From positions 1 to 64,000 of the forward strand of contig JAJRSO010000030.1 in NCBI GenBank assembly GCA_024278755.1: a DNA stretch of 64,000 bases, read 5' to 3'. Origin of the DNA: Calditrichota bacterium. Its GTDB lineage: Bacteria > Calditrichota > Calditrichia > Calditrichales > Calditrichaceae. The position numbers and the translations under genes are program-made. Shown here in pieces: positions 1,158 to 22,627 of this stretch. Below the pieces are notes generated by a model. It saw nothing but the letters and a program-made list of their open reading frames with translations. It had not been told where the DNA came from and made no database searches. The stretch's first letter is position 1, and every line of letters starts with the position of its first letter.

Positions 1158-2345
1158 TTACGGAATATACCCGTGTTCCAGATTTAATAAGGAGTTACGG
1201 TCGTCAAACTGTTTGTTCCAGCGCTGATCGATGGAGAAAACCAATCCGGCCTGAATCCGGGTTTCGCTTTTTCCATACAATGCTTTTAAATCTCCGCTAA
1301 ACTGTGATTGTTGTAACTGCAGGGTTAGGTCAAAATTTTCGCCCAGGCGGTAAAATGTATTGACAATAACCTGCCATTGCCGTGTTTCCCGCGTTAAATC
1401 CGGAAAAACCTTAAATCCTCCGGAAAGCGCTAATTGCAAAGTGGGACGTTCCAGCTTGCGGTATAAAAAGCGCACAGAAAAAAAGTGTGCTGCCGACCGG
1501 GCGCGTGTTAAATCGAAATAATTACTGATTTCTGAAATATTATCAAACCCCAAATTATAGATTACCTGAAAACGAGTATCCACAAAATATACGGGATCTG
1601 CTTTTAGGTTAAAAATACCAGATACCAGAATATTTTTCAGTGTTTGGTCAAACTGACTGGAAAATCCCTGTCGGTCGGTTAAAAAATTATTAAAACCAAT
1701 GCCCAATTGCTGAATAAAAGGCCGGTTCCAGAGCTGTGTTTCCGGTATAAGGTATTCCAGAGTAAGTCCAACCGCATTCAGACTGAAATCGGTTTCGGAT
1801 GTGGCCGGCGGTTGAACAGGTTTCGTAAAATGCTCGCCATGGACACGCAGCCAGTAGCGTTGTGCAAACACATGCGCCGCTTCAATTACATTGCCATACT
1901 GATTATCTTCCGTATTTTCTCCGGAAGAAAAGGGATTCAGTACATCCGTAAAGTATAAAGCGTCATCATCACGCAGGGTGGGGAATTCGATCAGAGCGCT
2001 GCGCACGCGTGAGCGTCCCATTTTAAGAATATTCTTTTGGTCTTCGATTTTCAGAAAAGTCTGATGAAAAAATACCTGTCCGAGGTCGGAATCGGCATCC
2101 GGGAACTGCAAGCCGATGACCATTTGTCCGCGAAAATTACTGTACAGCTTTTGCCGGAAACCCAATAAAAGACCGGTATCGGAAAAGTCGTTTACACTGG
2201 TAGCCTTTTGATTGTCGCTGATATCCGTGTTAAAAGACATCACACCGCGTGCGCTCAGTTGAATTTCCGGGCTGACCTGTGCAAAGGCGCCGTGCAACAC
2301 ACCTGTAAGTAAAATCAATAGCGCTATATTTTTTAGAAGGTTCAT
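1158..2345 (-). CDS. Outer-membrane beta-barrel protein, unknown function
   Basis: A 395-residue protein with a Sec signal peptide (cleavage after about AFA at 20-23) and long alternating hydrophobic/polar strands rich in aromatic residues, as in an outer-membrane barrel. I do not recognise a named family. It lies 36 nt downstream of one multicopper oxidase and 92 nt upstream of another on the same strand, so co-transcription is likely. An export or substrate-access role in copper handling is possible, but this rests only on the neighbourhood. The stop is not followed by a clear terminator. Confidence 0.7.
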   Translation of the reverse strand: MNLLKNIALLILLTGVLHGAFAQVSPEIQLSARGVMSFNTDISDNQKATSVNDFSDTGLLLGFRQKLYSNFRGQMVIGLQFPDADSDLGQVFFHQTFLKIEDQKNILKMGRSRVRSALIEFPTLRDDDALYFTDVLNPFSSGENTEDNQYGNVIEAAHVFAQRYWLRVHGEHFTKPVQPPATSETDFSLNAVGLTLEYLIPETQLWNRPFIQQLGIGFNNFLTDRQGFSSQFDQTLKNILVSGIFNLKADPVYFVDTRFQVIYNLGFDNISEISNYFDLTRARSAAHFFSVRFLYRKLERPTLQLALSGGFKVFPDLTRETRQWQVIVNTFYRLGENFDLTLQLQQSQFSGDLKALYGKSETRIQAGLVFSIDQRWNKQFDDRNSLLNLEHGYIP

Positions 2346-2381
2346 TATTTTCTCCTGATATTTTTATTGGTCGCTAAACGG

Positions 2382-3575
2382 CTATTCGTCCAGAGCCACG
2401 ATGGGCAGATTTTTCAGACCCATCTTTTTGGCCATCATGTTCAGTTCGGTTTCTTTAGCCGGTAGGTCCTCGTAAACCAGGGCAAGAAGATTGCCGCCGG
2501 GATACAGACCGTTATTCGTTACTCGCCGGGTATCGTGATCGTGAAAGGTCCAGATGCCACGGTTTTTCCCTTCGATAATGATGTCCAGTGTTTTACCCGG
2601 ACTCAGGCGTAATGTGTTGCGCTGCCAGGGCTGTGGAACCGGCAAGCCGTCATCGGCTACCTGCCAGAAATCATGCCCATGTAAATGCAAATAATGTTCT
2701 TCCGTGCCGGCATTAATCAGGCGTACCCGAATGTTTTCTTTTTCTTTAATAAATAAATTAGGCGTCATAGGATAGGATTTGCCGTTTACCGTAAACCAAT
2801 TGGGCACGGGTAGTTCATCCGGCGCCCGGCGGTTAACGAGATAAGGCGGCTGGTAACCATCTTTTACTGCCTGAACAAATTCATCTTTGGTGTTGAATAC
2901 GGCGAAACGCTCTTTGTTAAAGCGGCCGTTCTTCATCAGATACATGCGCTCTTTCATCCGCTCCAGCATGCTGTTCATCTCTTCGCGCAAAAAATTAACA
3001 TCGTGGGCCGAATAAAGTAATGTATATTCGCGTTCGTAGGGAAATTGTTTACGGATAGGATCGTCATCTTCTTCCACAATTAAACTACCGTACATACCAG
3101 CCTGCATGTGCAGTAAAGTGCCCCAGTGGCAGTGGTAAAAATGTGTGCCCTGTGGTTCGGCTAAAAACTCATAAACGAATTCCTGTCCGGGCATTACGGG
3201 CATTTGTGTTACATACGGTACACCGTCCATGCGCCATGGGACGTGCATACCGTGCCAGTGAATGGTGTGATTCAGTTCGGTTTTATTCTTGAAAATAACA
3301 CGCACTTTGTCGCCGCGCTTAACGCGGATTTCCGGTCCGGGCACCTGATTATTAAAGGCCAGGGTATGGATTTTAAACCCTGGTACGATTTCCTGCTGAT
3401 GAACGTCAATGAAGAGATGAAACTCTTTCACATCGCCGTCTATAATTGGTTTAAGTGGTGCAGGAAACTTCTGTGCGTTAGCCGCCACAGCCGTTGTGCT
3501 TAGCAAACTTGCCGGCAATAAAGCGGCTGCTGCCGTTAACATAGTAGATGTTTGCATAAATTCTCTTCGTTTCAT
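2382..3575 (-). CDS. Two-domain-type multicopper oxidase, T1 copper in domain 1
   Basis: 397 residues from the ATG at 3575, which has AAGGAG about 6 nt upstream; an upstream in-frame TTG at 3599 would add eight residues but is less likely. The signal sequence starts MKRREF. Cupredoxin domain 1 (about 50-170) carries HWHGMH at 106-111 and HFYHCHWGTLLHMQAGM at 145-161, so the Cys/His T1 site is here. The last cupredoxin domain (about 250-380) carries HLHGHDFW and TFHDHD but has no Cys, so it supplies trinuclear-centre ligands only. This layout fits the 'type C' two-domain oxidases, which act as trimers. Between the domains is a Met-rich helical stretch (EEMNSMLERMKERMYLM). Likely a periplasmic Cu(I) or phenol oxidase; the substrate cannot be read from sequence. 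Confidence 0.85.
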   Translation of the reverse strand: MKRREFMQTSTMLTAAAALLPASLLSTTAVAANAQKFPAPLKPIIDGDVKEFHLFIDVHQQEIVPGFKIHTLAFNNQVPGPEIRVKRGDKVRVIFKNKTELNHTIHWHGMHVPWRMDGVPYVTQMPVMPGQEFVYEFLAEPQGTHFYHCHWGTLLHMQAGMYGSLIVEEDDDPIRKQFPYEREYTLLYSAHDVNFLREEMNSMLERMKERMYLMKNGRFNKERFAVFNTKDEFVQAVKDGYQPPYLVNRRAPDELPVPNWFTVNGKSYPMTPNLFIKEKENIRVRLINAGTEEHYLHLHGHDFWQVADDGLPVPQPWQRNTLRLSPGKTLDIIIEGKNRGIWTFHDHDTRRVTNNGLYPGGNLLALVYEDLPAKETELNMMAKKMGLKNLPIVALDE

Positions 3576-3599
3576 AAAGCGCTCCTTTTTTATCGCCAA

Positions 3600-3906: not shown

Positions 3907-3910
3907 CTAT
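3667..3910. repeat. MITE-like relic with terminal inverted repeats, copy 1
   Basis: The left end reads TTGTCCGGTTAAAA and the right end, inverted, reads GTGTCCGGTTAAAA, giving near-identical terminal repeats of about 15 bp some 240 bp apart. Inside is a GC-rich hairpin (CCCCTCCCT ... AGGGAGGGG) followed by a TCCCG...CGGGA pair. No coding sequence is inside. A second copy with the same ends lies at about 46356-46574. The right end overlaps the last codons of the DUF5676 gene, so the insertion may have reshaped that gene's 3' end. Transposition origin is inferred from the structure only. Confidence 0.65.
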
Positions 3911-4173
3911 TGAGTTTCTATAGTAAACCGTTTGTAAATAAAATTATAAATGGGTACGTAAACTATGCCTGAATAGAGACCCCATAAGAGGCTTTCAGTC
4001 AGTCCCAATACAAATGTTCCCAAGCTTAGCCATTTGAAACCGGGTAAAATATTTTGTAAGAACTGATGCATGTGCAAATTCTCCGGAACGAATAATCCGT
4101 ATATCACACACAAGATGAAACTAAAAGCAAAAAAAATTCCCAATGATAAGCCAACGACTTTTGTTTTTAACAT
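3907..4173 (-). CDS. DUF5676-like small membrane protein
   Basis: 88 residues with two hydrophobic helices (about 8-30 and 48-80) separated by a short loop, ending in a YNFIYK motif. The pattern (LGLS/ALG start, 'LPGFKWLS', 'G..ESLLWG...' second helix) matches what I know of DUF5676 proteins, which often sit beside copper-efflux genes. The ATG has a good AAAGGAG ribosome site. The last codons overlap the right end of the inverted-repeat element. It has its own candidate sigma-54 box and upstream palindrome (separate entries), so it may be induced with the efflux operon. Function unknown. Confidence 0.75.
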   Translation of the reverse strand: MLKTKVVGLSLGIFFAFSFILCVIYGLFVPENLHMHQFLQNILPGFKWLSLGTFVLGLTESLLWGLYSGIVYVPIYNFIYKRFTIETQ

Positions 4174-4720: not shown

Positions 4721-4736
4721 AACAAGAACCGTGCCA
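4721..4736 (-). promoter_or_regulatory. Candidate sigma-54 promoter for the 37-residue peptide
   Basis: On the minus strand the site reads TTGGCACGGTTCTTGTT. TGGCACG and TTG match the consensus with correct spacing; the -12 dinucleotide is GT rather than GC. The predicted leader is about 50 nt. Confidence 0.6.
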
Positions 4737-4807
4737 ATTTAAGAAACCATTCAAATCCTTTATAATCAATGCTTATCATTATATTGATTTACTACAATTT
4801 GAAAAGA

Positions 4808-4845
4808 TGGAGACTATTCCGCAAGGCGGTGCAGAATAGTCTTCA
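4808..4845. promoter_or_regulatory. Tandem palindromic activator sites upstream of the peptide gene
   Basis: TGGAGACTATTCCGCA (4808-4823) and, inverted, TGAAGACTATTCTGCA (4830-4845) both fit TGNNGANTATTCNNCA. Their centres are 22 bp apart (two helical turns) and about 85-110 nt upstream of the -24/-12 box. Together they also form a stem-loop (AGACTATTC/GAATAGTCT). Confidence 0.6.
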
Positions 4846-4950: not shown

Positions 4951-5232
4951 CTAATTCGCCATTTTCAGAAATTCTACAATCTTTATAATATCATCTTCGG
5001 GCAGGTTTGCTCTAACTTTCATATGCATGGCGATGGTTTCCCATTGTACATCACTAAAAGCAGATGGTGACGGCGCATTGTGACAACGTATACAGTTTTC
5101 GCCCCACAATAAAGCGCCGGGCTTTTCGGCGACCAATTTTTTGCTGCTACAACTTTCGATTACAAAAAATGAAGCCACGAAAAGCAGAATGCTTAAAAAG
5201 GCGTACACGTTTCTATTCTTATAAAAGTTCAT
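4951..5232 (-). CDS. Small c-type cytochrome lipoprotein
   Basis: 93 residues. The signal ends in VIESCSS, a plausible lipobox, so a lipid-anchored protein is likely. One haem c site CIRCH lies at about 47-51. The distal half (PEDDIIKIVEFLKMAN) looks like the terminal helix of a minimal class I cytochrome; a Met in the M-H-M stretch at about 68-70 could be the axial ligand. The ATG follows AAAGGAG. It is the last gene of a three-gene unit with a porin and another cytochrome c, so it probably carries electrons in the periplasm, perhaps for the neighbouring oxidases (inference). Confidence 0.8.
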   Translation of the reverse strand: MNFYKNRNVYAFLSILLFVASFFVIESCSSKKLVAEKPGALLWGENCIRCHNAPSPSAFSDVQWETIAMHMKVRANLPEDDIIKIVEFLKMAN

Positions 5233-5261
5233 ATTTTTCTCCTTTAAAAAACTATCCTTGT

Positions 5262-6419
5262 TTAAAAGCCAAAGGCCCAGTGGATAAATACCGCGTTGTT
5301 TTCCGATGCTGTTTTATCCGTGTTGTTTTTACGCTCGGTAACCTGATAGGCAATTTTTAAAACCGTTCTCCAATCTAACCAGTAATTTATACCAGCGGCC
5401 CATTGGGTCTGTTCGCTGTTCCACAGTGCATTACCAGGAAAACTTAGGCTGGAGTAGCGTCCAACGAATTCAATGTTTTTAAAGAAAGCATTATATACGT
5501 ATGCCGGACGAAAAGAAGCCTGCATGTAATATGACCCGCTTATATTTTTAAATGAATAATAAGCGGAGTCTTTATTGGAATAATAGTCTGCGTTGTCCAC
5601 GGTAACTCTGTTGAATTGTCCTTTAATATCAAGTACGCCTTTAAAAAACAGTATATTTCTTACATAGGATACGTCAACGGCAGATAACAGTGCAGCGGTA
5701 TTCTTGTACCGGGTACCGGTATCGCCTACTTTAGCATACTGTCCGGATATTCCAATCTCCAAAGAAGAGTTAGAAAAAGGCAGCAAACCGATTCTGCCGC
5801 CCACGGCTTTGTTTGTATTGTTATCACTGTAATTTTTATAAATCAGCATTCCGGCTTCTTCTGTTTCCAGTTCGGGATCAGAACCATCATTGAGCCGGGG
5901 ACCATTTGTAATATATAGCGCGTAGTTTATTTTCCCTGTACGCAGATTATGTCCTCCGCGTATTTCTACACCCATATCACGTATAGGGCCTACGGGATCA
6001 TGTCCAAAACCAAGCGGAGTGGAAGGCATTCGGTTTATCCAGCGGGGATGAAGTCGTTCACCAAACGTCCCAAACGGGAGTAAGAAATAGCCAAGCCGTA
6101 AGGAGAGGTATTTACTTAGAAAATAGGACATGTTCGCGTATTCAAGCGCAAGGTAGGTTTTCGCGTCTTCGAGTTCCAACTCCAGTTCCGCTTCGAACAG
6201 TAATTTGGTCGACTGCTGCCACAAGAAGATGGGATTGAAACTGCCGCCAACAAAACTTGTTTTGCCTTCGATTAATTCTAAACCGGAATGTGCATAGCCT
6301 CTAAGCAAAAACCGGCTCTGACCCGGTATCACGGTATTCACTTTTTTAGTTAATGTTTCAATATCCTGGGCGAACAGATTACCCAGCATAAATAAAATAA
6401 TAATTACGATACGCTTCAT
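5262..6419 (-). CDS. Porin-like outer-membrane beta-barrel protein
   Basis: 385 residues with a Sec signal (cleavage after LFA, about residue 17) and a C-terminal Phe (HWAFGF), the usual outer-membrane insertion signal. The strands and the segment 'LRLGYFLLPFGTFGERLHP' resemble porins of the phosphate-selective O/P type. It sits 18 nt after one cytochrome c gene and 29 nt before another, so the three are likely co-transcribed. A barrel between two cytochromes recalls porin-cytochrome conduits, but each cytochrome here has a single haem, so a true conduit is unlikely. Substrate unknown. Confidence 0.75.
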   Translation of the reverse strand: MKRIVIIILFMLGNLFAQDIETLTKKVNTVIPGQSRFLLRGYAHSGLELIEGKTSFVGGSFNPIFLWQQSTKLLFEAELELELEDAKTYLALEYANMSYFLSKYLSLRLGYFLLPFGTFGERLHPRWINRMPSTPLGFGHDPVGPIRDMGVEIRGGHNLRTGKINYALYITNGPRLNDGSDPELETEEAGMLIYKNYSDNNTNKAVGGRIGLLPFSNSSLEIGISGQYAKVGDTGTRYKNTAALLSAVDVSYVRNILFFKGVLDIKGQFNRVTVDNADYYSNKDSAYYSFKNISGSYYMQASFRPAYVYNAFFKNIEFVGRYSSLSFPGNALWNSEQTQWAAGINYWLDWRTVLKIAYQVTERKNNTDKTASENNAVFIHWAFGF

Positions 6420-6437
6420 CAGGTACTCCTTTTATGG

Positions 6438-6863
6438 TTATTTTTCAGCAAGATGGCGAATCAGTTTTACTAATTGCCAGCGTTGTTCCTCGCTAAAGGT
6501 ATCCTTATAAGAAGCCATTGGTGATTTCCCATGTGTAATTTTCCAGAAAATGGCGCCGTCACTTTGTTTCTGTACTCTGGACGAAACCAGATTTGCGGGT
6601 CTGGGTGTTAAAGCCATTCCTCCTATTCCGTCGCCTAAGCCTTTGGCTCCGTGGCAGACAGTACAAAGTGTATTGAATGTTTGCTCCATATTCTTCCAGA
6701 CGTTGGGATTGTTTGCAAAAGGATTTTCCAGCTTATCCGCCTCCGCTGGGGCAATCCATCCCGAACCATCTTGCGGGGAGGTCGGATTTAAGTTAAGAAA
6801 TAAGAACCAGAAAATGAGTATGGAGAAAAAAGCAAGAATCCCTTTTCGAGTTATTCGTGCCAT
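6438..6863 (-). CDS. Membrane-anchored class I c-type cytochrome
   Basis: 141 residues: an N-terminal hydrophobic anchor (about 8-26), then a mono-haem cytochrome c domain with CTVCH at about 66-70, GxGDGIGG and PRPANL after it, and PMASY with the likely axial Met at about 115. The fold and length fit cytochromes with a 'GP.L.G..G..DG' core that serve as periplasmic electron carriers. AAAGGAG precedes the start. First gene of the cytochrome/porin unit; it has a 430-nt leader region with repeated TAACGATAT-type motifs. Confidence 0.85.
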   Translation of the reverse strand: MARITRKGILAFFSILIFWFLFLNLNPTSPQDGSGWIAPAEADKLENPFANNPNVWKNMEQTFNTLCTVCHGAKGLGDGIGGMALTPRPANLVSSRVQKQSDGAIFWKITHGKSPMASYKDTFSEEQRWQLVKLIRHLAEK

Positions 6864-7291: not shown

Positions 7292-8422
7292 CTAATGAGC
7301 ATGCGTTTCTTCTCCGGCATCATCGTGAGACATCATGTTTTTATCCATTTCCATTGCGGGCATGTCATCAAGGGAAACTACTTCGATACCGCTGAACTGA
7401 ATACTGCCGCTGCCCGAAATCAAAAAGCCTGCCGGTCCGGCCGGCAAATCGTCTCCATGCCCGTGTACGAGCAACTGCTCGTTTACATACCCTCGGTAAT
7501 GACCGCTGCTACTCACAGCTTTCAATGCAAGCCACCCGGAATCCTTAACAACGCCCGTGTCAAAAAAATCAACCGATCCGTTCTCGGAACGTCCCAGTCG
7601 TATTTGCGGTTCTTCTACTGCCAAAAAATCATATGTTGCAGGCCCGGAAATATGGTGCACTGTAAAAAAACGTCCTTTAAAATGAGCAAGATTCACATTC
7701 ATACTAAGCTGAAGATTTTTTAAGTTGGGTCCAAAATGAAATAAGAGTGTTGCATTCTCCGGTAGTTTAACGTTTAACGCCGCGCTACCGTTTTCTTTTT
7801 GTAGGTTTTGTAGAGTAACGTTTTCCCATTCGCCCTGCGCTAATGTAAAGTTTTGGCGAAAAGTTAAAGCGGCCTCATTTCCGGCCTGCCAGTTCCATGA
7901 ACCGTTCTCAGCTATATGAATGGTAGCGGTGGGAGATACTTCCTGTTTCTTTAAAACGGCTTTCTGTTGTACAACCATACCAACACCGAAGCGGAACACC
8001 AATTCACCGCCATGTTCGGCTGTTTGCTGTATCAGCCCCAGGCCGCCACCGGCAATAAGAAATAAGAGCACTGCGATGGCTGTACGTTGGTCCCATTTTT
8101 TCCAGTAGGTAAACAAACGAACAGCAGCATAGGCGATAAAAAAGATCATTGTGTAAAGGGCTAAATCGGCATGTTCGCTAATTACCGGATAGGAAGGTGG
8201 TGGGAAATTAACCACATCGGCCGCCTGTTTACCGGAAATATAGGCGCCGACCGTTCCCAACGCGCCAAAAACATAGAGCCATAAGGTTGCCGGTTTTATC
8301 CATGTATAACGTTTGAGTATAAGGCCTGCCAGGTCTGCTCCTACGGCAATAAACAGCAGGGCTATGGGGAAATGTACAATAAGCGGATGGATATTTGTCA
8401 TCCATTCGGGTGTGAGCTGCAT
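7292..8422 (-). CDS. DUF2231 membrane domain fused to a LamG-like domain
   Basis: 376 residues. Residues 1-150 are a four-helix DUF2231 domain with its usual conserved motifs HPLIVHFPIAL, SGKQAAD, SEHADL and TAEHGGELVFRFG; the conserved His residues may bind haem or metal. Residues about 165-350 form a secreted beta-sandwich resembling the DUF1080/LamG group (strands ending in 'HYRGYVNEQLLVHGHG' and 'PAGPAGFLISGSG'). The C-terminal tail is rich in Met, His and acid residues (MPAMEMDKNMMSHDD...HAH), a plausible metal-binding tail. It ends a five-gene operon and starts 14 nt after the beta-barrel gene. Role inferred: membrane redox or metal handling. Confidence 0.75.
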   Translation of the reverse strand: MQLTPEWMTNIHPLIVHFPIALLFIAVGADLAGLILKRYTWIKPATLWLYVFGALGTVGAYISGKQAADVVNFPPPSYPVISEHADLALYTMIFFIAYAAVRLFTYWKKWDQRTAIAVLLFLIAGGGLGLIQQTAEHGGELVFRFGVGMVVQQKAVLKKQEVSPTATIHIAENGSWNWQAGNEAALTFRQNFTLAQGEWENVTLQNLQKENGSAALNVKLPENATLLFHFGPNLKNLQLSMNVNLAHFKGRFFTVHHISGPATYDFLAVEEPQIRLGRSENGSVDFFDTGVVKDSGWLALKAVSSSGHYRGYVNEQLLVHGHGDDLPAGPAGFLISGSGSIQFSGIEVVSLDDMPAMEMDKNMMSHDDAGEETHAH

Positions 8423-8435
8423 ATTTTATTCCTTT

Positions 8436-9245
8436 CTATAGTGTCCATTCGATTCCGCCGGTCAGTGCATAATCCGGACTGCTTTCGCTAAACCCTTTAC
8501 CGACAAAAATCGATACAATGGTACTGTCTGATATTCGCGAAAATAAACCCAACGAAAGTTGTTGCGGCGGGTCGATTCCCCCGATGATTTGGGTGTAACC
8601 CTTATAATAAATGCTTGCCGAGTAAGCGCCATTTTTAAAAAATCTGCCAAGGCCAAAACCGAAACTAAAAGGGTTTATGTAATTATATCCGGAAGGATCA
8701 CCTAACAACAGGTAGCCGACATCTGCAAAAATACTATACATACCATAAGGCTTTCGCAGTACCATACCCAATCCATAGTCAAAAGCTCCCGAACTGAACA
8801 GAGTTAGTTTCTTAACCGTAGGTATTTTTAACTGACCCGTTACCGAAAAGGAGGGGAGCAAACGGTTGCTTTTTATAAGCTTGTATTCGCTATATAAATA
8901 CACGTCTCCCATTCCTCCGGAGTAGCTCTCCGAACCTTGCATTGCCGCATTCCCTGCAGAACCCGAAACGGTACCCTGATTATAAACCGAACTGTTCTGG
9001 ACGATAAAAGGAAATGCAACAGAAGCCGTCCATTTTGTCGTTTGATAGCGTATACCGGTATTTAGATAATAATTGGATGTATTTTGATCATAAATATAAG
9101 TACCGTTATTAAACGAAGCCGAAGTATATACCGACCAGTTTTTTGCGCTGACCGTAGTTGGCGCTTTGATGATAAAAAACAGCAGGGATATAATCCCGAA
9201 GGCCCGCAAAGAGCCTCCGGGAAAATGTAAGTTAAGAGTTTTCAT
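8436..9245 (-). CDS. Outer-membrane beta-barrel, MetA-degradation-like group
   Basis: 269 residues with a signal peptide (about 1-34, ending VSA) and a barrel of about 12 strands; the pattern (WSVYTSASF..., 'TGIRYQTTKWTASVAFPF', 'GMGDVYLYSEYKL') resembles 'transporter' barrels of the phenol_MetA_deg type. Its ATG overlaps the stop of the Met-rich gene by one base (TAATG), so the two are translationally coupled and probably made in fixed ratio. It may be an outer-membrane partner of the Met-rich protein (inference). Confidence 0.7.
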   Translation of the reverse strand: MKTLNLHFPGGSLRAFGIISLLFFIIKAPTTVSAKNWSVYTSASFNNGTYIYDQNTSNYYLNTGIRYQTTKWTASVAFPFIVQNSSVYNQGTVSGSAGNAAMQGSESYSGGMGDVYLYSEYKLIKSNRLLPSFSVTGQLKIPTVKKLTLFSSGAFDYGLGMVLRKPYGMYSIFADVGYLLLGDPSGYNYINPFSFGFGLGRFFKNGAYSASIYYKGYTQIIGGIDPPQQLSLGLFSRISDSTIVSIFVGKGFSESSPDYALTGGIEWTL

Positions 9246-9853
9246 TATTTACTTTCCGGGGCCGCGGACTGTTGGCGGATTTTGTTATAATTTTTCATCA
9301 TACCGTCCATAGACTTCATCATCTCATCCATGTTTTTCATCATTTCGTCCATCTGATTCTTCATGGCGGGGTTCTCCATCATCTTTGAATCGGCCATCAT
9401 GGTTTGCATATTTTTCATCATCTGTTCCATGCCGTTGGTCATATGCTTCATGTCCATTCCCATTTTATTTACAGGCATATCCTGGCCCTGACCAGGCCGC
9501 ATCATTTTGCCGGACATCATCCCCATTTTCTGTTCGGTCATTTTATTATTTTTCATCTGGGCCTCTGTTTGCATCATGCCATGCATTTGTTGGTTACCCG
9601 AGGCATCGGTATTTTTCATCATATTTTGCATTTGTTGATTCATCTGCTGCATGTTTTGCATCATCTGATCCATATTCATCATCATATTCTGCTGATTCAT
9701 ATGTTCCATTCCCTGATGCATGGAATTTTGCATTCCCTGATGTTGGCCCTGATGGCTTTGATCCATATGTTGCGCCTGGACTGTGGTTGTGGAAAAAACA
9801 GCGCCGAAAAACAACCCGGCAACGGCTAAGGTTAAAAGGTTTAACTTCTTCAT
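9245..9853 (-). CDS. Extremely Met-rich periplasmic protein, likely Cu(I)/Ag(I) binder
   Basis: 202 residues: a clear Sec signal (cleavage after VQAQ, about 28), then a low-complexity mature chain with about 49 Met in about 174 residues (about 28%) by my count, plus many Gln, Asn, Lys and several His. Repeating units such as MMKNM, MMQNM, MDEMMK and HQGM give Met spacings of i/i+1 and i/i+3, suited to a helix with a Met stripe. Thioether ligands favour Cu(I) and Ag(I), so a periplasmic sponge or chaperone is likely by analogy with other Met-rich copper proteins. No Cys in the mature part. It lies between a PII-like gene and an outer-membrane barrel gene. No named family recognised. Confidence 0.8.
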   Translation of the reverse strand: MKKLNLLTLAVAGLFFGAVFSTTTVQAQHMDQSHQGQHQGMQNSMHQGMEHMNQQNMMMNMDQMMQNMQQMNQQMQNMMKNTDASGNQQMHGMMQTEAQMKNNKMTEQKMGMMSGKMMRPGQGQDMPVNKMGMDMKHMTNGMEQMMKNMQTMMADSKMMENPAMKNQMDEMMKNMDEMMKSMDGMMKNYNKIRQQSAAPESK

Positions 9854-9884
9854 AATAATTCTCCTTTAAAGATATGTGTGTTTG

Positions 9885-10226
9885 TTACAACGCCTCGCTA
9901 TTGATGGCGCCCGTGCGAATTTTAATTACTTTCTCTACAGGGGTCACATAAATAATTCCGTCTCCTTGCTGTCCGGTGTATCCTACTTCCTGTAGCGTTT
10001 TTGTGATCTCTGAAACCTGGGCTTCTCTGCACACCAGCTCCAGCTTTGCAATATTGGAATATTTCTTTACGACCTGTATGGAATAGAGGGAATTACTTGT
10101 ATCTGCGAGGTGATCTCCAATACCCATTACAAAAGTGATTGTATAGTCGACAACACCCAGTTTATCCAGTGCATCGGTGATTTTCTCTGCTTTGTCCGCG
10201 CGAAAAAATGTTTTAATTTCTTTCAT
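9885..10226 (-). CDS. PII-like signalling protein of a metal-efflux operon
   Basis: 113 residues with the ferredoxin-like PII fold: starts MKEIKTFFRADK, has 'GDGIIYVTPVEKVIKIRTG', which matches the C-loop end of GlnB-type proteins (G.GKI.V.PVE...RIRTG). The T-loop lacks the GlnB uridylylation context. PII paralogues of this type are known beside heavy-metal RND pumps; in this window the pump is 7 kb away but shares the predicted activator site. The gene is second in its operon, between the SHOCT and Met-rich genes. Ligand unknown; nucleotide or metal sensing is inferred. Confidence 0.85.
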   Translation of the reverse strand: MKEIKTFFRADKAEKITDALDKLGVVDYTITFVMGIGDHLADTSNSLYSIQVVKKYSNIAKLELVCREAQVSEITKTLQEVGYTGQQGDGIIYVTPVEKVIKIRTGAINSEAL

Positions 10227-10271
10227 AGATCACTCCTTTACCATAAATAAATACTCTGCCTTTCGAGCGGC

Positions 10272-10505
10272 CTAAAGCGCATTAATATTCTGTTTAATCT
10301 TTTCGTACTCTGTCTGGGATATCTCTCCCTTAGCATAGCGCCGTTTCAGGATTTCCAGCGCATCCGAATCGGTGTTGTACGTTCCGTCCGCAAGGAAAGG
10401 CCGGTCTTGGTCGCGGTTTGTATTAAATACGGTAAACACGCCCCAAAGAATGAGTAGAAGAGCAAGTAGCCCAAAGACGGATCCAAATCCCATTCCTAAC
10501 ATCAT
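10272..10505 (-). CDS. SHOCT-domain membrane peptide
   Basis: 77 residues: one transmembrane helix (about 6-27), a short linker, then a C-terminal SHOCT motif (about 48-75: 'ALEILKRRYAKGEISQTEYE', the typical L..RYA.GEI...EYE). SHOCT domains are short oligomerisation or membrane-linked segments. ATG has a GGAG ribosome site. First gene of the operon behind the best sigma-54 box in the window. Confidence 0.85.
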   Translation of the reverse strand: MMLGMGFGSVFGLLALLLILWGVFTVFNTNRDQDRPFLADGTYNTDSDALEILKRRYAKGEISQTEYEKIKQNINAL

Positions 10506-10561: not shown

Positions 10562-10577
10562 AGCAATGTATGTGCCA
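10562..10577 (-). promoter_or_regulatory. Sigma-54 promoter of the SHOCT/PII/Met-rich operon
   Basis: On the minus strand: CTGGCACATACATTGCT. TGGCAC and TTGCT are full-consensus elements with GG and GC ten bases apart. The start would be near 10551, about 46 nt before the SHOCT ATG. Confidence 0.75.
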
Positions 10578-10653: not shown

Positions 10654-10704
10654 TAGAGAATATTCGCCAATCAATAAATATTTGTGTAGAATATTCTACA
10701 CAAA
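10654..10704. promoter_or_regulatory. Activator palindromes of the SHOCT/PII/Met-rich operon
   Basis: The main site, 10681-10704, is a perfect 24-bp palindrome whose core TGTAGAATATTCTACA (10685-10700) fits TGNNGANTATTCNNCA. A weaker copy, TAGAGAATATTCGCCA (10654-10669), has one deviation and lies 31 bp away centre to centre. Main site to -24/-12 box: about 122 nt. The palindrome overlaps the stop codon of the DCC oxidoreductase gene upstream. Confidence 0.7.
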
Positions 10705-14968: not shown

Positions 14969-16372
14969 TTAGTCCTCTCTTGCGTTGTCGTTTTTTATTG
15001 GCAGCGAAATGGTAAAACGGCTGCCCTCATTTTGTTTGCTTTTTACGGCGATGGTTCCGTTGTGCATTTGAATGACCCAAAGCGAAATGGCCAGTCCTAA
15101 TCCGCTTCCGCCCAATTCGCGCGAACGCGCTTTATCCACACGGTAAAAACGCCGGAAGATTTTATCGAGATGCGCTTTGGGAATTCCGTTTCCGCTGTCG
15201 CTTATGGATATGGCGGCTTCAAAAGCGTTATGTTTTAACGTAACGGTTATCTTACTTTCCGCGGGAGCGTATTTGATGGCATTGTCCAAAATATTTAGCA
15301 GCGCTTCCCGTACTAAATCACGGTCGGCAAAAAGAGAGATGTCGCCATTACTTTGCAGTTCGATGACTTGTTTCTTCTCTTCAGCGAGGGGTTGAATAAA
15401 TTCTATGGTCTGTTCGACAAAGGGAATAAAATCAAATAATTCTTTGCGCAGCTTCATCTGGTCGGAATCGGCCCGCGAAAGAAAAAGCAGGCTGTCTATC
15501 AATCGCGTTAAACGGCGGTTTTCTTCCAATATACTGCCGATTACATTGCGGTAGTATTCCGGTTTCTTATTTTCCTGAAGGCTCACTTCTCCCATACTGC
15601 GGATGGCGGTGAGCGGAGTACGCAATTCGTGGGCGGCGTCGGATGTGAATTGTTTTAGCCGCAGGAAGGATTTTTCAAGCCGATCCAGCAGGGCATTAAA
15701 AGTGAGAGAAAGATTTCCCAACTCATCCCGGGCATTGGCGACCGGAAGCCGTTCGTGTAAATTTTCTTCACCTATTTTGCGGGCAGTAACTGCCATTCGA
15801 TCCACCGGAGCCAGCAGTTTTTTACTTAAAAAATACCCGCCCCATCCGGCAATGATAATGGAAAGCGGCAGGGCAATAATTAAAATCCATAAAAACGAAA
15901 ACAACTCCCGCCATAAAGACGCCTCGTTTTTTATAAGCCGAACAAAAAACCAGTGGCCGTCGATGTTTACTTTTCCCTGCATTATGCGCAGGTGTAAATC
16001 GTTGGGCAGGCTTAACGATTTAAAGCGGAATCCGTCTCCGTTTTTTAGCCGGTTTTGAAAAGAGGGGAGTATGGCTGAACTGACCGGACGGCTTTTAAAA
16101 AGTACCAGGTTCTCCGGCGACCAGATTTCGAACCAGTTTTCCCGCAGATACGGGTTGCTTTCCGCTTTAAAATAGAGCGAATCGTTTGCGCCAATCTGAA
16201 TTATGTTTTCCAGAAGTTCGTAGTTTTCCGCTAACTCCTGGTCCAAATTATGACGCAAGTTCAAATAGAGCAATGCAATGGTAAATCCGGCATACAGAAT
16301 AAGAATAAACGTAAAAATCAATACATACCAAAGCGTTAACCTGGCACGGACATTTTTAATTCCGGAAAGCAT
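14969..16372 (-). CDS. Two-component sensor histidine kinase, CusS-like layout
   Basis: 467 residues: transmembrane helix (about 12-35), periplasmic domain (about 36-155), second helix (about 157-180), HAMP (about 182-235), HisKA with phospho-acceptor in 'HELRTPLTAIRSMGE' (about 247), and HATPase_c with N box 'ALLNILDNAIKYA', 'DSGNGIPKAHLDKIF' and 'GGSGLGLAI'. The order matches heavy-metal sensors such as CusS. Its ATG overlaps the TGA of the response regulator's original reading frame (TGATG), so the pair evolved as a coupled unit. Signal unknown; copper is possible from context. Confidence 0.9.
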   Translation of the reverse strand: MLSGIKNVRARLTLWYVLIFTFILILYAGFTIALLYLNLRHNLDQELAENYELLENIIQIGANDSLYFKAESNPYLRENWFEIWSPENLVLFKSRPVSSAILPSFQNRLKNGDGFRFKSLSLPNDLHLRIMQGKVNIDGHWFFVRLIKNEASLWRELFSFLWILIIALPLSIIIAGWGGYFLSKKLLAPVDRMAVTARKIGEENLHERLPVANARDELGNLSLTFNALLDRLEKSFLRLKQFTSDAAHELRTPLTAIRSMGEVSLQENKKPEYYRNVIGSILEENRRLTRLIDSLLFLSRADSDQMKLRKELFDFIPFVEQTIEFIQPLAEEKKQVIELQSNGDISLFADRDLVREALLNILDNAIKYAPAESKITVTLKHNAFEAAISISDSGNGIPKAHLDKIFRRFYRVDKARSRELGGSGLGLAISLWVIQMHNGTIAVKSKQNEGSRFTISLPIKNDNARED

Positions 16373-16539
16373 CAGGGTGTATCCTCCGAAAGGATAAATC
16401 CCACACCGCGAATGGTATGAATTAATTTCTGCTGAAACGGATCGTCAATTTTACGGCGCAGCCGGGCAATGTGTACATCAATCAGGTTATCAATGGGGGT
16501 GGCGCGATCGACCTCTTTCCACACCTCTTTTGCAATCAT
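16372..16539 (-). pseudogene. Severed C-terminal part of the OmpR-type regulator
   Basis: In frame with the gene upstream and directly after its TAA, this stretch encodes the rest of a winged-helix DNA-binding domain (MIAKEVWKEV..., 'IDVHIARLRRKIDDP', 'TIRGVGFIL'), ending TGA over the kinase ATG. It contains the recognition helix. It has no obvious ribosome site of its own, although the stop is followed directly by ATG (TAAATG), so restart after termination is conceivable. Confidence 0.8.
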
Positions 16540-17055
16540 TTACCGCGAGACAATCTGGCCTTTGTGGCGCAATAATAGTTCCAGAAAATCAAATTCCAGA
16601 ACCGTCAAACTAATAGCGTCGGCGTTTCGTTTAACCTTTCGGGTAATCCGATCCATTTCCAGATCGGAAACAAACAGGCGTAACCTGCCGTTGCTTTTTC
16701 CGCGGCGAAGTAAAACCCGGATACGCGCCAGTAATTCGGCAAAGGCAAAGGGTTTGATCAGATAGTCGTCGGCGCCGCTGTCCAGCCCCTTTACCCGGTC
16801 TTCCACCGTGTCCCGCGCGGTTAAAACGAGAACAGGAAACCGCATCCCTTTTTCACGAACCGATTTTAAAATTTCCAGTCCGTCCCTGCCTGGCAGCATC
16901 AGATCCAGCAGCAGTAGATCATAGCTTTGCGTACTGAGCATATAAAAGCCCTCTTCGCCGCTAAAGGCCAGATCTACTTCGTAGTTTTCATGCAGCAGAC
17001 CTTCTTTTAAAGCTGCGGCTACTTTTTGTTCGTCTTCAATTACCAAAATGCGCAT
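16540..17055 (-). CDS. OmpR-family response regulator, cut short by in-frame TAA
   Basis: REC domain (about 1-115: 'RILVIEDEQ', phospho-Asp in LLLLDLMLPGRDG near 50, 'VLTARD', Lys in 'LIKPFAF') followed by the first half of a winged-helix domain, then TAA after QIVSR. The remaining about 55 residues, including the recognition helix, follow in frame (pseudogene entry). I chose ATG 17055 because OmpR proteins start MRIL; ATG 17082 is also possible and neither has a strong ribosome site. The usual residue at the stop is often Glu, Asp or Thr, so one base change (e.g. GAA to TAA) explains it. As read, the product could be phosphorylated but probably could not bind DNA. Confidence 0.8.
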   Translation of the reverse strand: MRILVIEDEQKVAAALKEGLLHENYEVDLAFSGEEGFYMLSTQSYDLLLLDLMLPGRDGLEILKSVREKGMRFPVLVLTARDTVEDRVKGLDSGADDYLIKPFAFAELLARIRVLLRRGKSNGRLRLFVSDLEMDRITRKVKRNADAISLTVLEFDFLELLLRHKGQIVSR

Positions 17056-17115
17056 GTTATCGTTCCGGAATATTTTAGACATATTTTAAGGAATTTATGG
17101 AAAGATAAAACATAA

Positions 17116-17480: not shown

Positions 17481-20400
17481 CTAATTGGTTGTATGGCTTT
17501 CCGGAGCTTCTGTTTTTAACTGAACCGCAAGCCGTTTAACTTCGTAGCTTTTCCACAGATAGTAGATGGCCGGTATTACAATCAGCGTTAAAATGGTGGA
17601 TGAAACCATCCCGCCCACCATGGGTGCGGCAATCCGTTTCATCGTTTGCGAACCGGCGCCGACGCCCCATAAAATAGGTACCAAACCGATCATGGTCGTC
17701 ATCACCGTCATTAGCTTGGGGCGTACGCGATCCACCGCGCCGGAGATGATGGCGTCGTATAAATCTTTCATATTACGCATGGTACCGTTTAATATTTTTT
17801 CTTTAAACACATTATCGAGATACACCAGCATCACAACGCCCGTCTCTGCGGCCAGACCGGCCAGGGCGATGAAACCCACTCCTACGGCCACACTGAAGTT
17901 GTAATCCAGAAAATACATAAACCAGATGCCGCCCACGAGCGCAAAGGGCAGCGACAGCATTACGATCAGACTTTCGGTAAAATTTTTAAAGTTAAAGTAA
18001 AGCAGCAGAAAAATAATGACCAGCGTAATGGGGATCACCAGGTTCAGACGTTTTTGCGCTCGTTCCATGTATTCGAACTGACCGCTCCAGACCAGGCTGT
18101 ATCCTTCGGGGAAATCGATTTCTTTTTCCACTATTTTTTGAGCATTTTTAACATAGGTGCCCACATCAATGCCGCGTAAATCCACATAGAGCCAGGCCGT
18201 ACGGCGGGCGTTTTCGCTTTTAATAACCGGCGGGCCTTTTTTAATGGAAATATCGGCCACATAACTTAATGGAATCTGTGCGCCACCGGGAGTAGGAACA
18301 AGCACACGCTTAATAGAATTCAGATTGTCGCGCAGCTCACGGCTGTAACGCACGTTTACCGGATAGCGTTCCAGACCTTCTACTGTGTATGTTACATTCA
18401 TCCCGCCAATAGCCGACATAATTACATCCTGCACATCGCCAACGGTAAGTCCGTAGCGGGCCGCTTCTTTGCGTTTAATATCAAAATCGAAAAAGTTACC
18501 GCCCACCGCTTTATCGGGGAAGACGCTAAGCGTGCCTTTGACATCTTTAATTACCGCAGCGATTTCCTGACCCAGGTCGGATAGCACTTGTAAATCGGGA
18601 CCCATAATTTTAATGCCCACCGGCGTTTTAATTCCCGTACTAAGCATATCGATTCGCGTTTTAATGGGCATGGTCCAGGCGTTGGTAAGACCAGGAAACT
18701 GAATCGCCGCGTCCAGTTCGGCGATCAGTTTCTCAATGGTCATCCCCGGCCTCCACTTCTCTTTCGGTTGAAGCATAATGGTTGTTTCGATCATCGACAG
18801 CGGCGCCGGATCGGTGGCCGTTTCGGCCCGGCCGATTTTACCGAATACATGGTGCACTTCCGGAAAACTTTTAATGATCTTATCCGTCTGCTGCAAGAGC
18901 TCTTTGGCCTTGGTAATGCTGATACCCGGGTCGGTAGTGGGCATATAAAGCAGATCGCCTTCGTTTAAGGGCGGCATAAATTCCGAACCGATTTTACCAA
19001 GGGGGAAAATTGTGATTAAAAGAATAACCACAGCCGTTCCGATGGTAATCCAACGGAAACGCAGCACCCAGTGGATAATGGGCCGGTATAGTTTTATCAA
19101 AATGCGGCTGACGGGGTTTTTGTGCTCGGGCATAATTTTACCGCGTACAAAATAACCCATTAGCACCGGAACGATGGTAATGGCCAGAAAAGCGGCTCCG
19201 GCCATAGCATAGGTTTTGGTAAACGCCAGCGGTTTAAACAGGCGGCCTTCCTGTGCCTGCAGGGTGAATACCGGTAAAAAGGAGATGGTAATTATCAACA
19301 GGGAATAAAAGAGCGCCGGTCCTACCTCTTTGGACGAATCGATTATGATGCGCCAGTGATCCTTTTTACCGCCATCCCTTTCGATATGTTTATGGGCGTT
19401 TTCTATCATCACAATGGCCGCGTCCACCATGGCGCCAATGGCGATGGCAATACCTCCTAACGACATAATATTGGCGTTAATCCCCTGAAAATACATAATC
19501 AGAAAAGAGATTAAAATACCCATGGGCAGGGTAAACAGGGCCACGAATGCCGAGCGAAAATGCAGCAGAAAGATAATGCTGACCAGGGCTACTACGAGCA
19601 GTTCTTCCAGCAGCTTCCAGCTTAAATTATCGATGGCGCGCTGAATGAGTCCGGCGCGATCGTATGCGGTCCGGATGGTTACGCCTTCGGGCAGACCCTT
19701 TTTGAGTTCTTCTAATTTGGTTTTGACCCGTTCGATGGTTTTAAGGGCATTCTCGCCAAAGCGCATTACAATGATGCCGCCCACGGTTTCACCTTCGCCG
19801 TTCCAGTCGGCCAGGCCGCGCCGCAGCTCCGGTCCGATGACCACATTGGCTACGTTTTTAATTAGAATCGGCGTTCCGTTGGCGTCCACACCCAGCGGGA
19901 TATTTTCGATATCCTGTATGGATTTAATGTATCCCAGTCCGCGTACCATAAATTCGGTTTCGCCCATTTCAACCAGTTTACCGCCCACATCATTGTTGCT
20001 GCGCTTTATGGCTTTTCGCACCTTTTGAATGGGGATGTTGTAAGCTAAGAGTTTGTTAGGATCCACTTGTACCTGGTATTGTTTTACATAACCGCCGATG
20101 CTGGCCACCTCGGCCACACCGGGTACGGTGGTTAATTCGTAGCGCAGGTACCAATCCTGGATGGAGCGTAATTCCTGAAGATCATACGTATCTCCGCCGT
20201 CCAGTGTATATTCATAAACCCAGCCCACACCGGTGGCGTCCGGACCTAAGGTGGGTGTTATGCCCTGGGGAAGACGACTGGAAACGTAATTCAGATATTC
20301 CAGAACCCGCGATCGTGCCCAGTACAGATCGGTGCCGTCCTCAAAAATAATATAAACAAAGGAGAGACCGAAAAAGGAATAGCCGCGCACCACTTTGGCG

Positions 20401-20633
20401 TATGGTACGGCCAGCATGGCTGTGGTTAAAGGATAGGTCACCTGGTCTTCCACTACCTGCGGCGCCTGACCGGCATACTCGGTAAAGATAATCACCTGCA
20501 CATCGCTCAAATCCGGAATGGCGTCAATGGGCGTATCCAGCAAAGCGTAGATTCCGGCCAAAGCCAGAAAGGCGGTGAAGATGATCACCAGAAAACGGTT
20601 GTTTACTGATTTTTCAATTATTTTTTCTAACAT
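17481..20633 (-). CDS. cusA: Heavy-metal RND efflux pump, Cu(I)/Ag(I) type
   Basis: 1050 residues, the normal CusA length. 'MLEKIIEKSVNNRFLV' starts the first transmembrane helix; two large periplasmic loops and 12 helices follow, with 'GGIAIAIGAMVDAAIVMIEN' in helix 4, where the HME subfamily carries its proton-relay Asp. The three Met-bearing contexts known for CusA are present: LLYMP, PLSMIETTI and RIDMLSTGIK, which favours Cu(I)/Ag(I) rather than Zn/Co. The C-terminal helices (FVYLDNVF..., 'MVGGMVSSTILTLIVIPAIY') are complete. Inner-membrane pump of the CusCBA tripartite complex. It lies 151 nt after cusB, with an inverted repeat in the gap. Confidence 0.93.
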   Translation of the reverse strand: MLEKIIEKSVNNRFLVIIFTAFLALAGIYALLDTPIDAIPDLSDVQVIIFTEYAGQAPQVVEDQVTYPLTTAMLAVPYAKVVRGYSFFGLSFVYIIFEDGTDLYWARSRVLEYLNYVSSRLPQGITPTLGPDATGVGWVYEYTLDGGDTYDLQELRSIQDWYLRYELTTVPGVAEVASIGGYVKQYQVQVDPNKLLAYNIPIQKVRKAIKRSNNDVGGKLVEMGETEFMVRGLGYIKSIQDIENIPLGVDANGTPILIKNVANVVIGPELRRGLADWNGEGETVGGIIVMRFGENALKTIERVKTKLEELKKGLPEGVTIRTAYDRAGLIQRAIDNLSWKLLEELLVVALVSIIFLLHFRSAFVALFTLPMGILISFLIMYFQGINANIMSLGGIAIAIGAMVDAAIVMIENAHKHIERDGGKKDHWRIIIDSSKEVGPALFYSLLIITISFLPVFTLQAQEGRLFKPLAFTKTYAMAGAAFLAITIVPVLMGYFVRGKIMPEHKNPVSRILIKLYRPIIHWVLRFRWITIGTAVVILLITIFPLGKIGSEFMPPLNEGDLLYMPTTDPGISITKAKELLQQTDKIIKSFPEVHHVFGKIGRAETATDPAPLSMIETTIMLQPKEKWRPGMTIEKLIAELDAAIQFPGLTNAWTMPIKTRIDMLSTGIKTPVGIKIMGPDLQVLSDLGQEIAAVIKDVKGTLSVFPDKAVGGNFFDFDIKRKEAARYGLTVGDVQDVIMSAIGGMNVTYTVEGLERYPVNVRYSRELRDNLNSIKRVLVPTPGGAQIPLSYVADISIKKGPPVIKSENARRTAWLYVDLRGIDVGTYVKNAQKIVEKEIDFPEGYSLVWSGQFEYMERAQKRLNLVIPITLVIIFLLLYFNFKNFTESLIVMLSLPFALVGGIWFMYFLDYNFSVAVGVGFIALAGLAAETGVVMLVYLDNVFKEKILNGTMRNMKDLYDAIISGAVDRVRPKLMTVMTTMIGLVPILWGVGAGSQTMKRIAAPMVGGMVSSTILTLIVIPAIYYLWKSYEVKRLAVQLKTEAPESHTTN

Positions 20634-20654
20634 TTTTTCTCCGTTTAAACAGAA

Positions 20655-20783
20655 TTCCCTGATTGAATTTCCCCTTAGAAAAGGGGATTAAGGGGTTGTA
20701 AAATAAGTCCTATGCAATGTTATTTCAGTTCAAAAAAAGAACAAAAACAACCCCCTCTGTCCCCCTTTTTTAAGGGAGATGTG
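20655..20783. repeat. Inverted repeat between cusB and cusA
   Basis: ACAACCCCTTAATCCCC... (inverted, left side) and ACAACCCCCTCTGTCCCCC... (right side) are related arms of about 32 bp flanking an A/T-rich centre of about 65 bp. Each arm also has its own small stem (CCCCTT/AAGGGG; CCCTT/AAGGG). It resembles a decayed palindromic intergenic repeat. In the transcript it could form a structure lowering cusA expression relative to cusB. Confidence 0.5.
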
Positions 20784-20784
20784 G

Positions 20785-22353
20785 TTACTTATTCCCGCCG
20801 CATTTTCCGGCGCCGCACTTCATCTCCGTTTCTTTGCTTTTATTGAGTTTCTCTTTTGGTTTCGGTTCCATTTTCATCTCAGGCTCTTTTGTTCCCGGTT
20901 CTGTTTTTTCATTTTTCATTTGTCTTTTTTCATTCTTTTCGGCTAACATTTTCTGAATGGCTTCCTGCAGGCGGCTTTCGCTGTCTAACATGAATTGTGC
21001 GGAAATTACCACGGATTCGTTTCCCAGCAAACCGGAAATAATGCGGATTTTTCCTTCACTTTCTTCGCCGATCTGCACCTCCCGCGGCGTAAAGCGGCCT
21101 TTACCCTGGGCAAGAAAAACAATATTACGCGCACCGGAACGAATGACCGCTTCGGTGGGCACCACCAGAGCATTTTCGATGGCCGGGGCCTGGATACGGA
21201 TATTTCCGTACATTCCGGGTCTGAGCTGCATATCTGCATTGGGAAATTCGACGCGCACTTTTAAATCGCGCGTCTTTTCATTTAAATAGGGATAGACATA
21301 CGTTACTTTCCCCTTTAGCCGTTTTCCCGGCATATAAGATAATTCCAGCTCGGCGGGCTGACCTTCTTTGATCCAGGAGGCTTCATTATCATAAATACTG
21401 ACATTCACCCAAACCGTGGAGAGATCGGCAATGCGGTACAAATCCATTCCTTCTTTGATATGCATCCCGTCAACCGCGTTTTTGTGAATCACAACGCCAT
21501 TTGCCGGGGACACCAGGCGAAGCGTTTTGCGCACCTGTCCGCTGTTTTCCAGCTTTTTGATTTCCGCTTCGGGAATATCCCAGTACGCAAGACGCTGGCG
21601 GCTGGCCTTTACCAACGATTCGGCCCCATCGCGGATACTTGCAAATTTACTGTCTTTTACCATCTTCTGGTTTTTTAAGGCCAACAGATATTCCTGCTGT
21701 GTCGTAACCAAATCCGGTGAATAGATTTCTAATAGCGTCTGATCTTTGCGCACTTTCTGTCCGGTATAATTTACCGAAAGATGTTCAATCCAGCCGCTAA
21801 TCCGGGCGGATATGGCATAAATGGCCTCTTCGTTGTAATCCACTTTTCCCACGGCGCGCAGCGATCGGCTGAAATCGGTTCGAATAACCGGAGCGGTGCG
21901 TACTCCCATGTTTTGCACGGTGACCGGGTCTATCTGCACATTGCTGCCGGAAGACACCTGGTCGTCATATACCGGAACGAGGTCCATTCCCATATTGGAT
22001 TTACCGGGTCTGTCGTATATTTCCGTTGGATTCATAGGCGCCTGCCAATAAAGAATCTTGCGTTCACCATTATCCGTATTTTTATCGGTTCCGGCCGGCG
22101 TTTTGTTTGTTTTTAACGGCACGAGGTCCATACCGCACTTGGGGCACTGACCCGGCTCGTCTAAAATGACTTCCGGATGCATGCCACAGGTGTAAAGCTG
22201 ACCTTCCGCGTCACTGTGCTGGTGGGTTTCATTTGCCTGTTTTTCGCTACTGCAGGACAGGGTGAATACGGAAAAAACAGTGAGCAGAGCGAGCAAAGAG
22301 AAAAAGAGTAGTTTCTTTGATTTTGGGTTTGGTAGATTCATTTGGTTCTCCAT
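20785..22353 (-). CDS. cusB: RND periplasmic adaptor with heavy-metal-binding domains
   Basis: 522 residues. The N-terminus has a lipobox-like 'FTLSCSS' at about 31-37. Two heavy-metal-binding motifs follow: YTCGMHPE...CPKCGMDLVPL (about 53-80) and the Cys-less YWQAPMNP...NMGMDLVPVY (about 98-128), as in CusB. The adaptor body has the usual hairpin, lipoyl and beta-barrel parts ('ISGWIEHLSVNYTGQKVRKDQ', 'LVSPANGVVIHKN', 'LRPGMYGNIRI'). The tail (about 455-522) is a Lys/Glu/Met-rich low-complexity extension ending CGAGKCGG, not usual in CusB, and may bind metal. Links CusA to CusC and may deliver metal. Confidence 0.92.
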   Translation of the reverse strand: MENQMNLPNPKSKKLLFFSLLALLTVFSVFTLSCSSEKQANETHQHSDAEGQLYTCGMHPEVILDEPGQCPKCGMDLVPLKTNKTPAGTDKNTDNGERKILYWQAPMNPTEIYDRPGKSNMGMDLVPVYDDQVSSGSNVQIDPVTVQNMGVRTAPVIRTDFSRSLRAVGKVDYNEEAIYAISARISGWIEHLSVNYTGQKVRKDQTLLEIYSPDLVTTQQEYLLALKNQKMVKDSKFASIRDGAESLVKASRQRLAYWDIPEAEIKKLENSGQVRKTLRLVSPANGVVIHKNAVDGMHIKEGMDLYRIADLSTVWVNVSIYDNEASWIKEGQPAELELSYMPGKRLKGKVTYVYPYLNEKTRDLKVRVEFPNADMQLRPGMYGNIRIQAPAIENALVVPTEAVIRSGARNIVFLAQGKGRFTPREVQIGEESEGKIRIISGLLGNESVVISAQFMLDSESRLQEAIQKMLAEKNEKRQMKNEKTEPGTKEPEMKMEPKPKEKLNKSKETEMKCGAGKCGGNK

Positions 22354-22627
22354 TTGATTATATTTTCTGGTTTATCTTGTTTATACCCGAATATTTTTGT
22401 CGGGGAGGCTAAGTATGTAACCGTATTTCCGCCTACGTGGGGATGACGATCTTTTATCCCCGCTAATCACAGATTGTTGCGAAAAGAAATTAGCCGCGAA
22501 AGCGCGCGAATATATTTAAGCAGCCGAAACAATAAGCACTGAAAGGGTTTAATCAGTGGAAATCAGTGTTCATCCGCGGCTAAAAAAGAAACTGCGATAC
22601 CCTGACCCAAAGGGAAGCGAATTAGTT
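22354..22627. other. Non-coding gap between cusC and cusB with a dispersed repeat
   Basis: The 274-nt gap is long for an operon. Its core (about 22477-22592) is a copy of a dispersed repeat also seen at about 46705-46810: both contain GAAATTAG(C/T)CGCGAA, AATAAGCACTGAA(A)GGG and AAATCAGTGTTCAT. The left part contains 'GTATGTAACCGTATTTCCGCC' in part, unrelated to neighbours. No gene seen. Confidence 0.55.
22477..22592. repeat. Dispersed intergenic repeat, copy 1
   Basis: Shares GAAATTAG(C/T)CGCGAA, AATAAGCACTGAA and AAATCAGTGTTCAT(C/T)CG with 46705-46810. Its ends are inverted (TTAGCCGCG...CGCGGCTAA), so this copy can fold on itself. Sequences like 'AATCAGTG..CATCCGCGGC' occur between genes in many bacterial phyla; function unknown. 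Confidence 0.6.

Follow-up and report, generated by a model that had tools for sequence, protein, structure and literature searches.

A 64,000-nucleotide stretch of the Calditrichota bacterium contig JAJRSO010000030.1 (hereafter the window) carries five open reading frames arranged head to tail on the minus strand, with intergenic gaps of 45, 31, −1 and 13 bp. The first gene (10272-10505) encodes a small SHOCT-domain membrane protein (PF09851, E 1.7e-9) and the second (9885-10226) a PII-family protein that matches PF00543 over residues 1-106 (E 2.8e-18). These are followed by an exported methionine-rich protein (9245-9853), distinguished by its Met content and proposed here to be a Cu(I) sponge, an outer-membrane β-barrel (8436-9245; PF11383/PF13557) and a fusion of a four-helix DUF2231 membrane domain (PF09990, E 1.9e-18) with a CBM66-like, His-rich β-sandwich (7292-8422). 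The original prediction had described the set as a candidate copper/silver operon sharing its control with an efflux pump. The five genes lie where it placed them, and judged from sequence the set is not a chance grouping. The observation is confirmed, and on control and conservation it is stronger than first stated; the biochemistry is what we infer.

The mature Met-rich protein, after a 27-residue signal peptide assigned by eye, contains 49 Met in 175 residues (28.0%, the share first reported), seven His and no Cys. Its relatives contain 16-26% Met over the full precursor, mostly lack Cys and share a conserved C-terminal stretch. Neither Pfam nor NCBIfam gave a match above cut-off to a curated family, PcoE/SilE included, and the Pfam matches to MG280, G-alpha and DUF948 were rejected as composition-driven and either below cut-offs or inconsistent among members. 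The stop codon overlaps the start codon of the barrel gene (TAATG), in agreement with the coupling claimed for the pair, and in several genomes the Met-rich gene is likewise upstream of, and translationally coupled to, a barrel gene. The AlphaFold2 model of the barrel (pLDDT 79), whose strands begin at residue 37, finds its nearest folds by Foldseek in FapF (TM ~0.69) and COG4313 (0.60). Assignment as a CopB homologue was rejected, as the barrel has no match to PF05275; the CopB/PcoB profile also found no member in any of the 40 Calditrichota species genomes that form our phylum sample, while a control match was found in Caulobacter.

The closest solved folds being structures of the polypeptide transporter FapF, and the Met-rich gene being coupled to the barrel, the barrel might export the Met-rich protein to the cell surface, as FapF does with FapC, so that a secreted sponge traps copper outside the cell. 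We regard this as very unlikely. The closest structure to FapF is itself the channel of the COG4313 importer (PMC5557850), such that the fold leaves the direction of transport undecided; moreover, the barrel offers no room for the N-terminal coiled coil of FapF, and the Met-rich and barrel genes lie apart in two relatives (L059 and L060). We favor instead a Met-rich buffer that plausibly hands metal to the barrel.

The AlphaFold2 model of the fusion (pLDDT 82, pTM 0.52, a value that leaves domain placement uncertain) comprises four helices and a sandwich nearest to CBM66 structure 4b1m (TMt ~0.71). The LamG domain named in the original prediction did not hold as a family call, with no Pfam LamG match at E 0.05, and was kept as a fold class, CBM66 being a related concanavalin-like sandwich. 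The Met/His C-terminal tail, also named there, is present in about 10 of 15 aligned relatives but is not a conserved feature; absent from about one third of them, it was rejected as a functional element. All DUF2231 sequences examined share three histidines in the membrane domain (His12, His17 and His84); among the fusions, His308, His320 and His322 are conserved almost without exception, and His256/257 are common. Loops 1-2 and 3-4 carry positive charges, and by the positive-inside rule the periplasmic side would therefore hold the N-terminus, the sandwich and loop 2-3. Above the Pfam cut-off the fusion matches only DUF2231, and neither CopC (PF04234) nor CopD (PF05425), with no whole-genome CopC search made; CopD is absent from this genome and over the cut-off in 6 of the 40 Calditrichota genomes. 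A limited literature search found no link between DUF2231 and copper, which is no proof of novelty.

The cusC, cusB and cusA genes of a tripartite Cu(I)/Ag(I) pump, assigned by Pfam, lie at 17481-23914 on the minus strand. The alignment of CusA of the window with its E. coli counterpart spans nearly the whole protein, and Met564, Met614 and Met663 correspond to Met573, Met623 and Met672 of the E. coli protein, the methionine triad that characterizes heavy-metal efflux resistance-nodulation-division (HME-RND) pumps for Cu(I)/Ag(I). A second two-component pair, an OmpR-type regulator and kinase resembling CusRS (14969-17082), adjoins cusA, such that two two-component systems flank the pump. The wider copper island includes a multicopper oxidase (2382-3599, minus strand; PF07732/PF07731). 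This oxidase is 92% and an adjacent 395-aa protein 83% identical to their counterparts in genome G001 (window 1158-3599; L044), as against 59% for the DUF2231 fusion, a contrast that suggests recent transfer or unequal constraint. Among 72,556 plasmids the fusion found no match and the PII protein only matches below 60% identity.

Of the 40 Calditrichota genomes, 15 encode a full-length DUF2231 fusion; named relatives of the locus include Caldithrix abyssi HyVt-577. A synteny search, suggested along with the original prediction, showed that the genes co-occur elsewhere: the Met-rich protein, barrel and fusion are contiguous in 10 of the 40 genomes (the window, L042, L044-L049, L052 and L053). 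In five of these (L046-L049 and L052) they directly continue a cusC-cusB-cusA-PII operon, and the separate operon of the window is therefore probably a piece split from an ancestral cus operon, if the direction of change is read correctly. The exact order SHOCT, PII, Met-rich protein, barrel, fusion is shared by the window and L042 only. Thus, of the copper/silver operon as first proposed, the assignment to these metals is supported, whereas the five-gene order is rare and the conserved core consists of the last three genes.

A cytochrome c-porin-cytochrome c set (4951-6863, minus strand; PF13442) trails the fusion in L046-L049. Given that the three invariant membrane histidines could be ligands of heme as readily as of metal, the fusion could be a redox protein, using heme or quinone and acting with this set, and linked to copper indirectly, for example by Cu(I) oxidation or by repair of respiration under copper stress. 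Most fusion loci lack the cytochrome set, however, and the fusion has neither a heme motif nor a match to a heme family, making this an unlikely account beside a direct role in metal handling. The set, whose porin has no family match, accompanies the copper module in the window, L046-L049, L059 and L060, and in L045 it is also preceded by the palindrome described below.

Upstream of the SHOCT gene, we found an exact palindrome, TGTAGAATATTCTACA (10685-10700), in single copy in this genome and predicted to be an activator site, followed 107 bp on by TGGCACATACATTGCT; the σ54-type −24/−12 element of the five-gene operon, TGGCACATACATTGC, is located at 10563-10577 on the minus strand and has no mismatch. 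The same combination precedes the pump, with a σ54 element, TGGCACTATTATTGA (24166-24180, minus strand), before a small gene and cusC, and the palindrome with one mismatch, TGTAGAATAATCTACA (24267-24282), upstream of cusC. The control that the operon and pump were claimed to have in common is therefore borne out as a prediction. The small gene encodes a membrane protein without Pfam match (window 23895-24152; L154 1709-2119) that in most relatives sits immediately ahead of cusC and comes first after the palindrome. At 4808-4845 on the minus strand, two imperfect palindromes 22 bp apart, read from the sequence and with one copy matched at three mismatches, precede a 37-aa open reading frame and, further on, a DUF5676 gene (3907-4173) and the multicopper oxidase. 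With a σ54 element at 4722-4736, the region 4722-4845 probably holds the third promoter of this regulon. On another contig (C23), a palindrome with one mismatch precedes genes for a DUF302 protein, a SHOCT protein and a copper ATPase. The copper cluster is frequently accompanied by a DUF302 protein of about 128 aa (L043, L046-L049, L052, L059, L060 and L143), whose gene is not in the window.

Pattern searches located the palindrome exactly in 16 of the 40 Calditrichota genomes and, when up to one mismatch was allowed, in 25, against none for the reversed-sequence control. A −24/−12 element lies within 190 bp of 44 of 56 clustered palindrome sites, compared with 6% of random positions in the same loci, and some sites are paired, 22 bp apart. 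The sites are followed mostly by cusC together with its small leader gene, by SHOCT genes, copper ATPases, multicopper oxidases and genes for the Met-rich protein; in L042 and L159 a SHOCT gene is the first to follow the palindrome, and in L148 one precedes a copper ATPase. In loci from Bacteroidota and Ignavibacteria, the palindrome found only three-mismatch matches at chance-like positions, and the operator therefore looks limited to Calditrichota.

Further upstream of the pump, an NtrC-type response regulator, a σ54 activator (24448-25791, minus strand; PF00072, PF00158, PF02954), and a histidine kinase with a hydrophobic N-terminal sensor region (25889-27013, minus strand; PF00512/PF02518) are encoded. 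Relatives of the regulator immediately precede the palindrome and cus operon, and it is thus probably the protein that activates through the palindrome; in several genomes both kinase and regulator are encoded beside cus. Full-length relatives of the kinase occur in 24 of the 40 genomes, and in 37 of the 40, kinase and palindrome are either both present (23) or both absent (14). In the sensor region, residues H32, H43 and H80 are invariant in 20 of 20 sequences. Most kinase relatives (L199-L217) also have Met47 and Met82, at which positions the window copy has Arg and Leu. The genome encodes RpoN, and hence the AAA+ activator, −24/−12 element, upstream palindrome and sigma factor expected of σ54-dependent, NtrC-type control are all present.

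The PII protein belongs to its superfamily by the PF00543 match over the whole protein and retains the GDG and RTG elements. In an alignment with PII proteins of solved structure, read by eye, it lacks T-loop residues Tyr51 and Lys58, which serve uridylylation and 2-oxoglutarate binding, and it does not qualify as a canonical GlnB or GlnK. Its relatives directly follow cusA in L045-L049, L052 and L055-L058, a linkage to a heavy-metal RND pump of the kind expected of PII-NG. The PII sensing proposed originally is possible, but these residues are missing, and the placement of a PII gene beside a metal pump is not new, being already known from the PII-NG genes of Geobacter (PMC7726332).

Taken together, synteny with cusCBA, copper ATPases and multicopper oxidases, the CusA triad and the phylum-wide promoter architecture support a copper/silver assignment. 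A module with a wider role in heavy-metal or envelope stress, without specificity for these metals, would accommodate the PII-NG genes that stand beside czcABC, cobalt-induced in Geobacter (PMC7726332), as well as the DUF302 and SHOCT families, which are not copper-specific. The methionine triad of CusA and a palindrome common to copper ATPases and multicopper oxidase argue for copper instead, and we give the broader alternative little weight.

A scan of 84,980 genomes, from which 80 loci were kept, extends the picture to Neomarinimicrobiota, Ignavibacteria, Rhodothermota, Balneolota, other Bacteroidota, Acidobacteria and a few others besides Calditrichota. In L085 (Ignavibacteriota), the Met-rich protein, barrel and fusion recur together, and CusA and PII are encoded farther upstream. 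In Cytophagales loci (L101, L103, L105-L110), each half of the fusion has its own gene, next to that of the other, independent evidence that the halves function together, and the conserved histidines are kept also where the halves are separate. Among fusion loci spanning 12 kb or more, 30 of 38 have a copper marker nearby (CusA, multicopper oxidase, copper ATPase, PII, Met-rich protein or DUF302), as against none of 13 DUF2231-only loci, a contrast that overstates certainty, as the control set is taxonomically different. Other points likewise weigh against the reading proposed below. About ten fusion loci, mostly from Bacteroidota and Rhodothermales, have no copper neighbor and yet largely the same histidines; several (among L070, L074, L077, L078, L081 and L083) sit between genes for an aminotransferase V and a ClpB-like protein, a setting for which no copper-only explanation accounts. 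Homology of the Met-rich protein is hard to judge given its composition bias, and the uncertain placement of the domains in the fusion model counts here as well.

With these points considered, the module is probably a copper(I)-responsive, possibly silver-responsive, envelope defense of Pco-like design, in which PII is tied to an NtrBC/σ54-type circuit. It forms a separate operon here, under the same predicted switch, and the tail of the cusCBA operon in related genomes. For copper induction, the sequence evidence strongly suggests that the membrane kinase, through histidines in its hydrophobic sensor region, would phosphorylate the NtrC-type regulator, which in turn would bind TGTAGAATATTCTACA about 75-160 bp upstream of the −24/−12 element and activate σ54 polymerase. 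In the predicted division of labor, the exported Met-rich protein would soak up Cu(I) and work with its coupled barrel, comparable to the PcoE sponge and the PcoB tail and barrel. At the inner membrane, the DUF2231 fusion, with its membrane histidine site and periplasmic His-rich sandwich, would hold metal or hand it over. In the weakest step of the scheme, cytosolic PII might regulate the pump or the kinase without reporting 2-oxoglutarate. More tentatively, and with rather less confidence than in the module itself, we speculate that a nitrogen-control design of PII, NtrB-like kinase, NtrC-like activator and σ54 has been re-used in Calditrichota as a copper circuit, with the kinase histidines reading copper and PII tuning the kinase or CusA, so as to drive a Pco-like system of unrelated proteins. 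If true, these proposals would assign a role to the DUF2231 fusion and the recurring Met-rich/barrel pair, provide a short DNA motif from which the copper regulon of a rarely cultured phylum can be predicted, and add an example of copper homeostasis under NtrC/σ54-type control with PII in the operon. The role of PII-NG beside metal pumps would also become directly testable.

In its parts list, the module resembles the Pco/Cop systems, with a Met-rich sponge, an outer-membrane barrel, an inner-membrane metal protein and a multicopper oxidase nearby. PcoE is a periplasmic sponge (PMC9210255), and PcoB homologs have a disordered His/Met-rich tail needed for function (PMC12509749); here, sponge and barrel are separate proteins and the His/Met-rich part would be the coupled one. 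Unlike Pco/Cop, the module comes without CopB in the 40 genomes or CopD in this genome, and its predicted control is of NtrC/σ54 type. A paper on copper signaling in marine bacteria reports 43 copper-system hits in C. abyssi and does not mention NtrC/σ54 (PMC10141476). The pump shares with E. coli CusCBA a near-full-length CusA with its triad, but its operon is extended by the module and has a predicted σ54 promoter. The barrel shares fold and a conserved PT motif with FapF/COG4313 (PF13557), at about 16% identity and without the coiled coil of FapF, and the sandwich shares its fold with CBM66 of Bacillus levanase at about 10% identity, differing in its fusion to a membrane domain and in its conserved His-rich positions. 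As with PII-NG beside CzcABC or CusABC, to which it is likened by position and residues rather than by a tree, the PII gene directly follows cusA in relatives and has lost canonical regulatory residues, but here it is tied to the Met-rich/barrel/DUF2231 set and an NtrC-type circuit. Lastly, a PII protein by a transporter, a kinase with an NtrC-type activator and a σ54 promoter with an upstream palindrome recall GlnB/NtrB/NtrC/σ54 and glnK-amtB, from which this system differs in its membrane-bound kinase with sensor histidines, its copper-gene targets and a PII lacking the uridylylation and 2-oxoglutarate residues.

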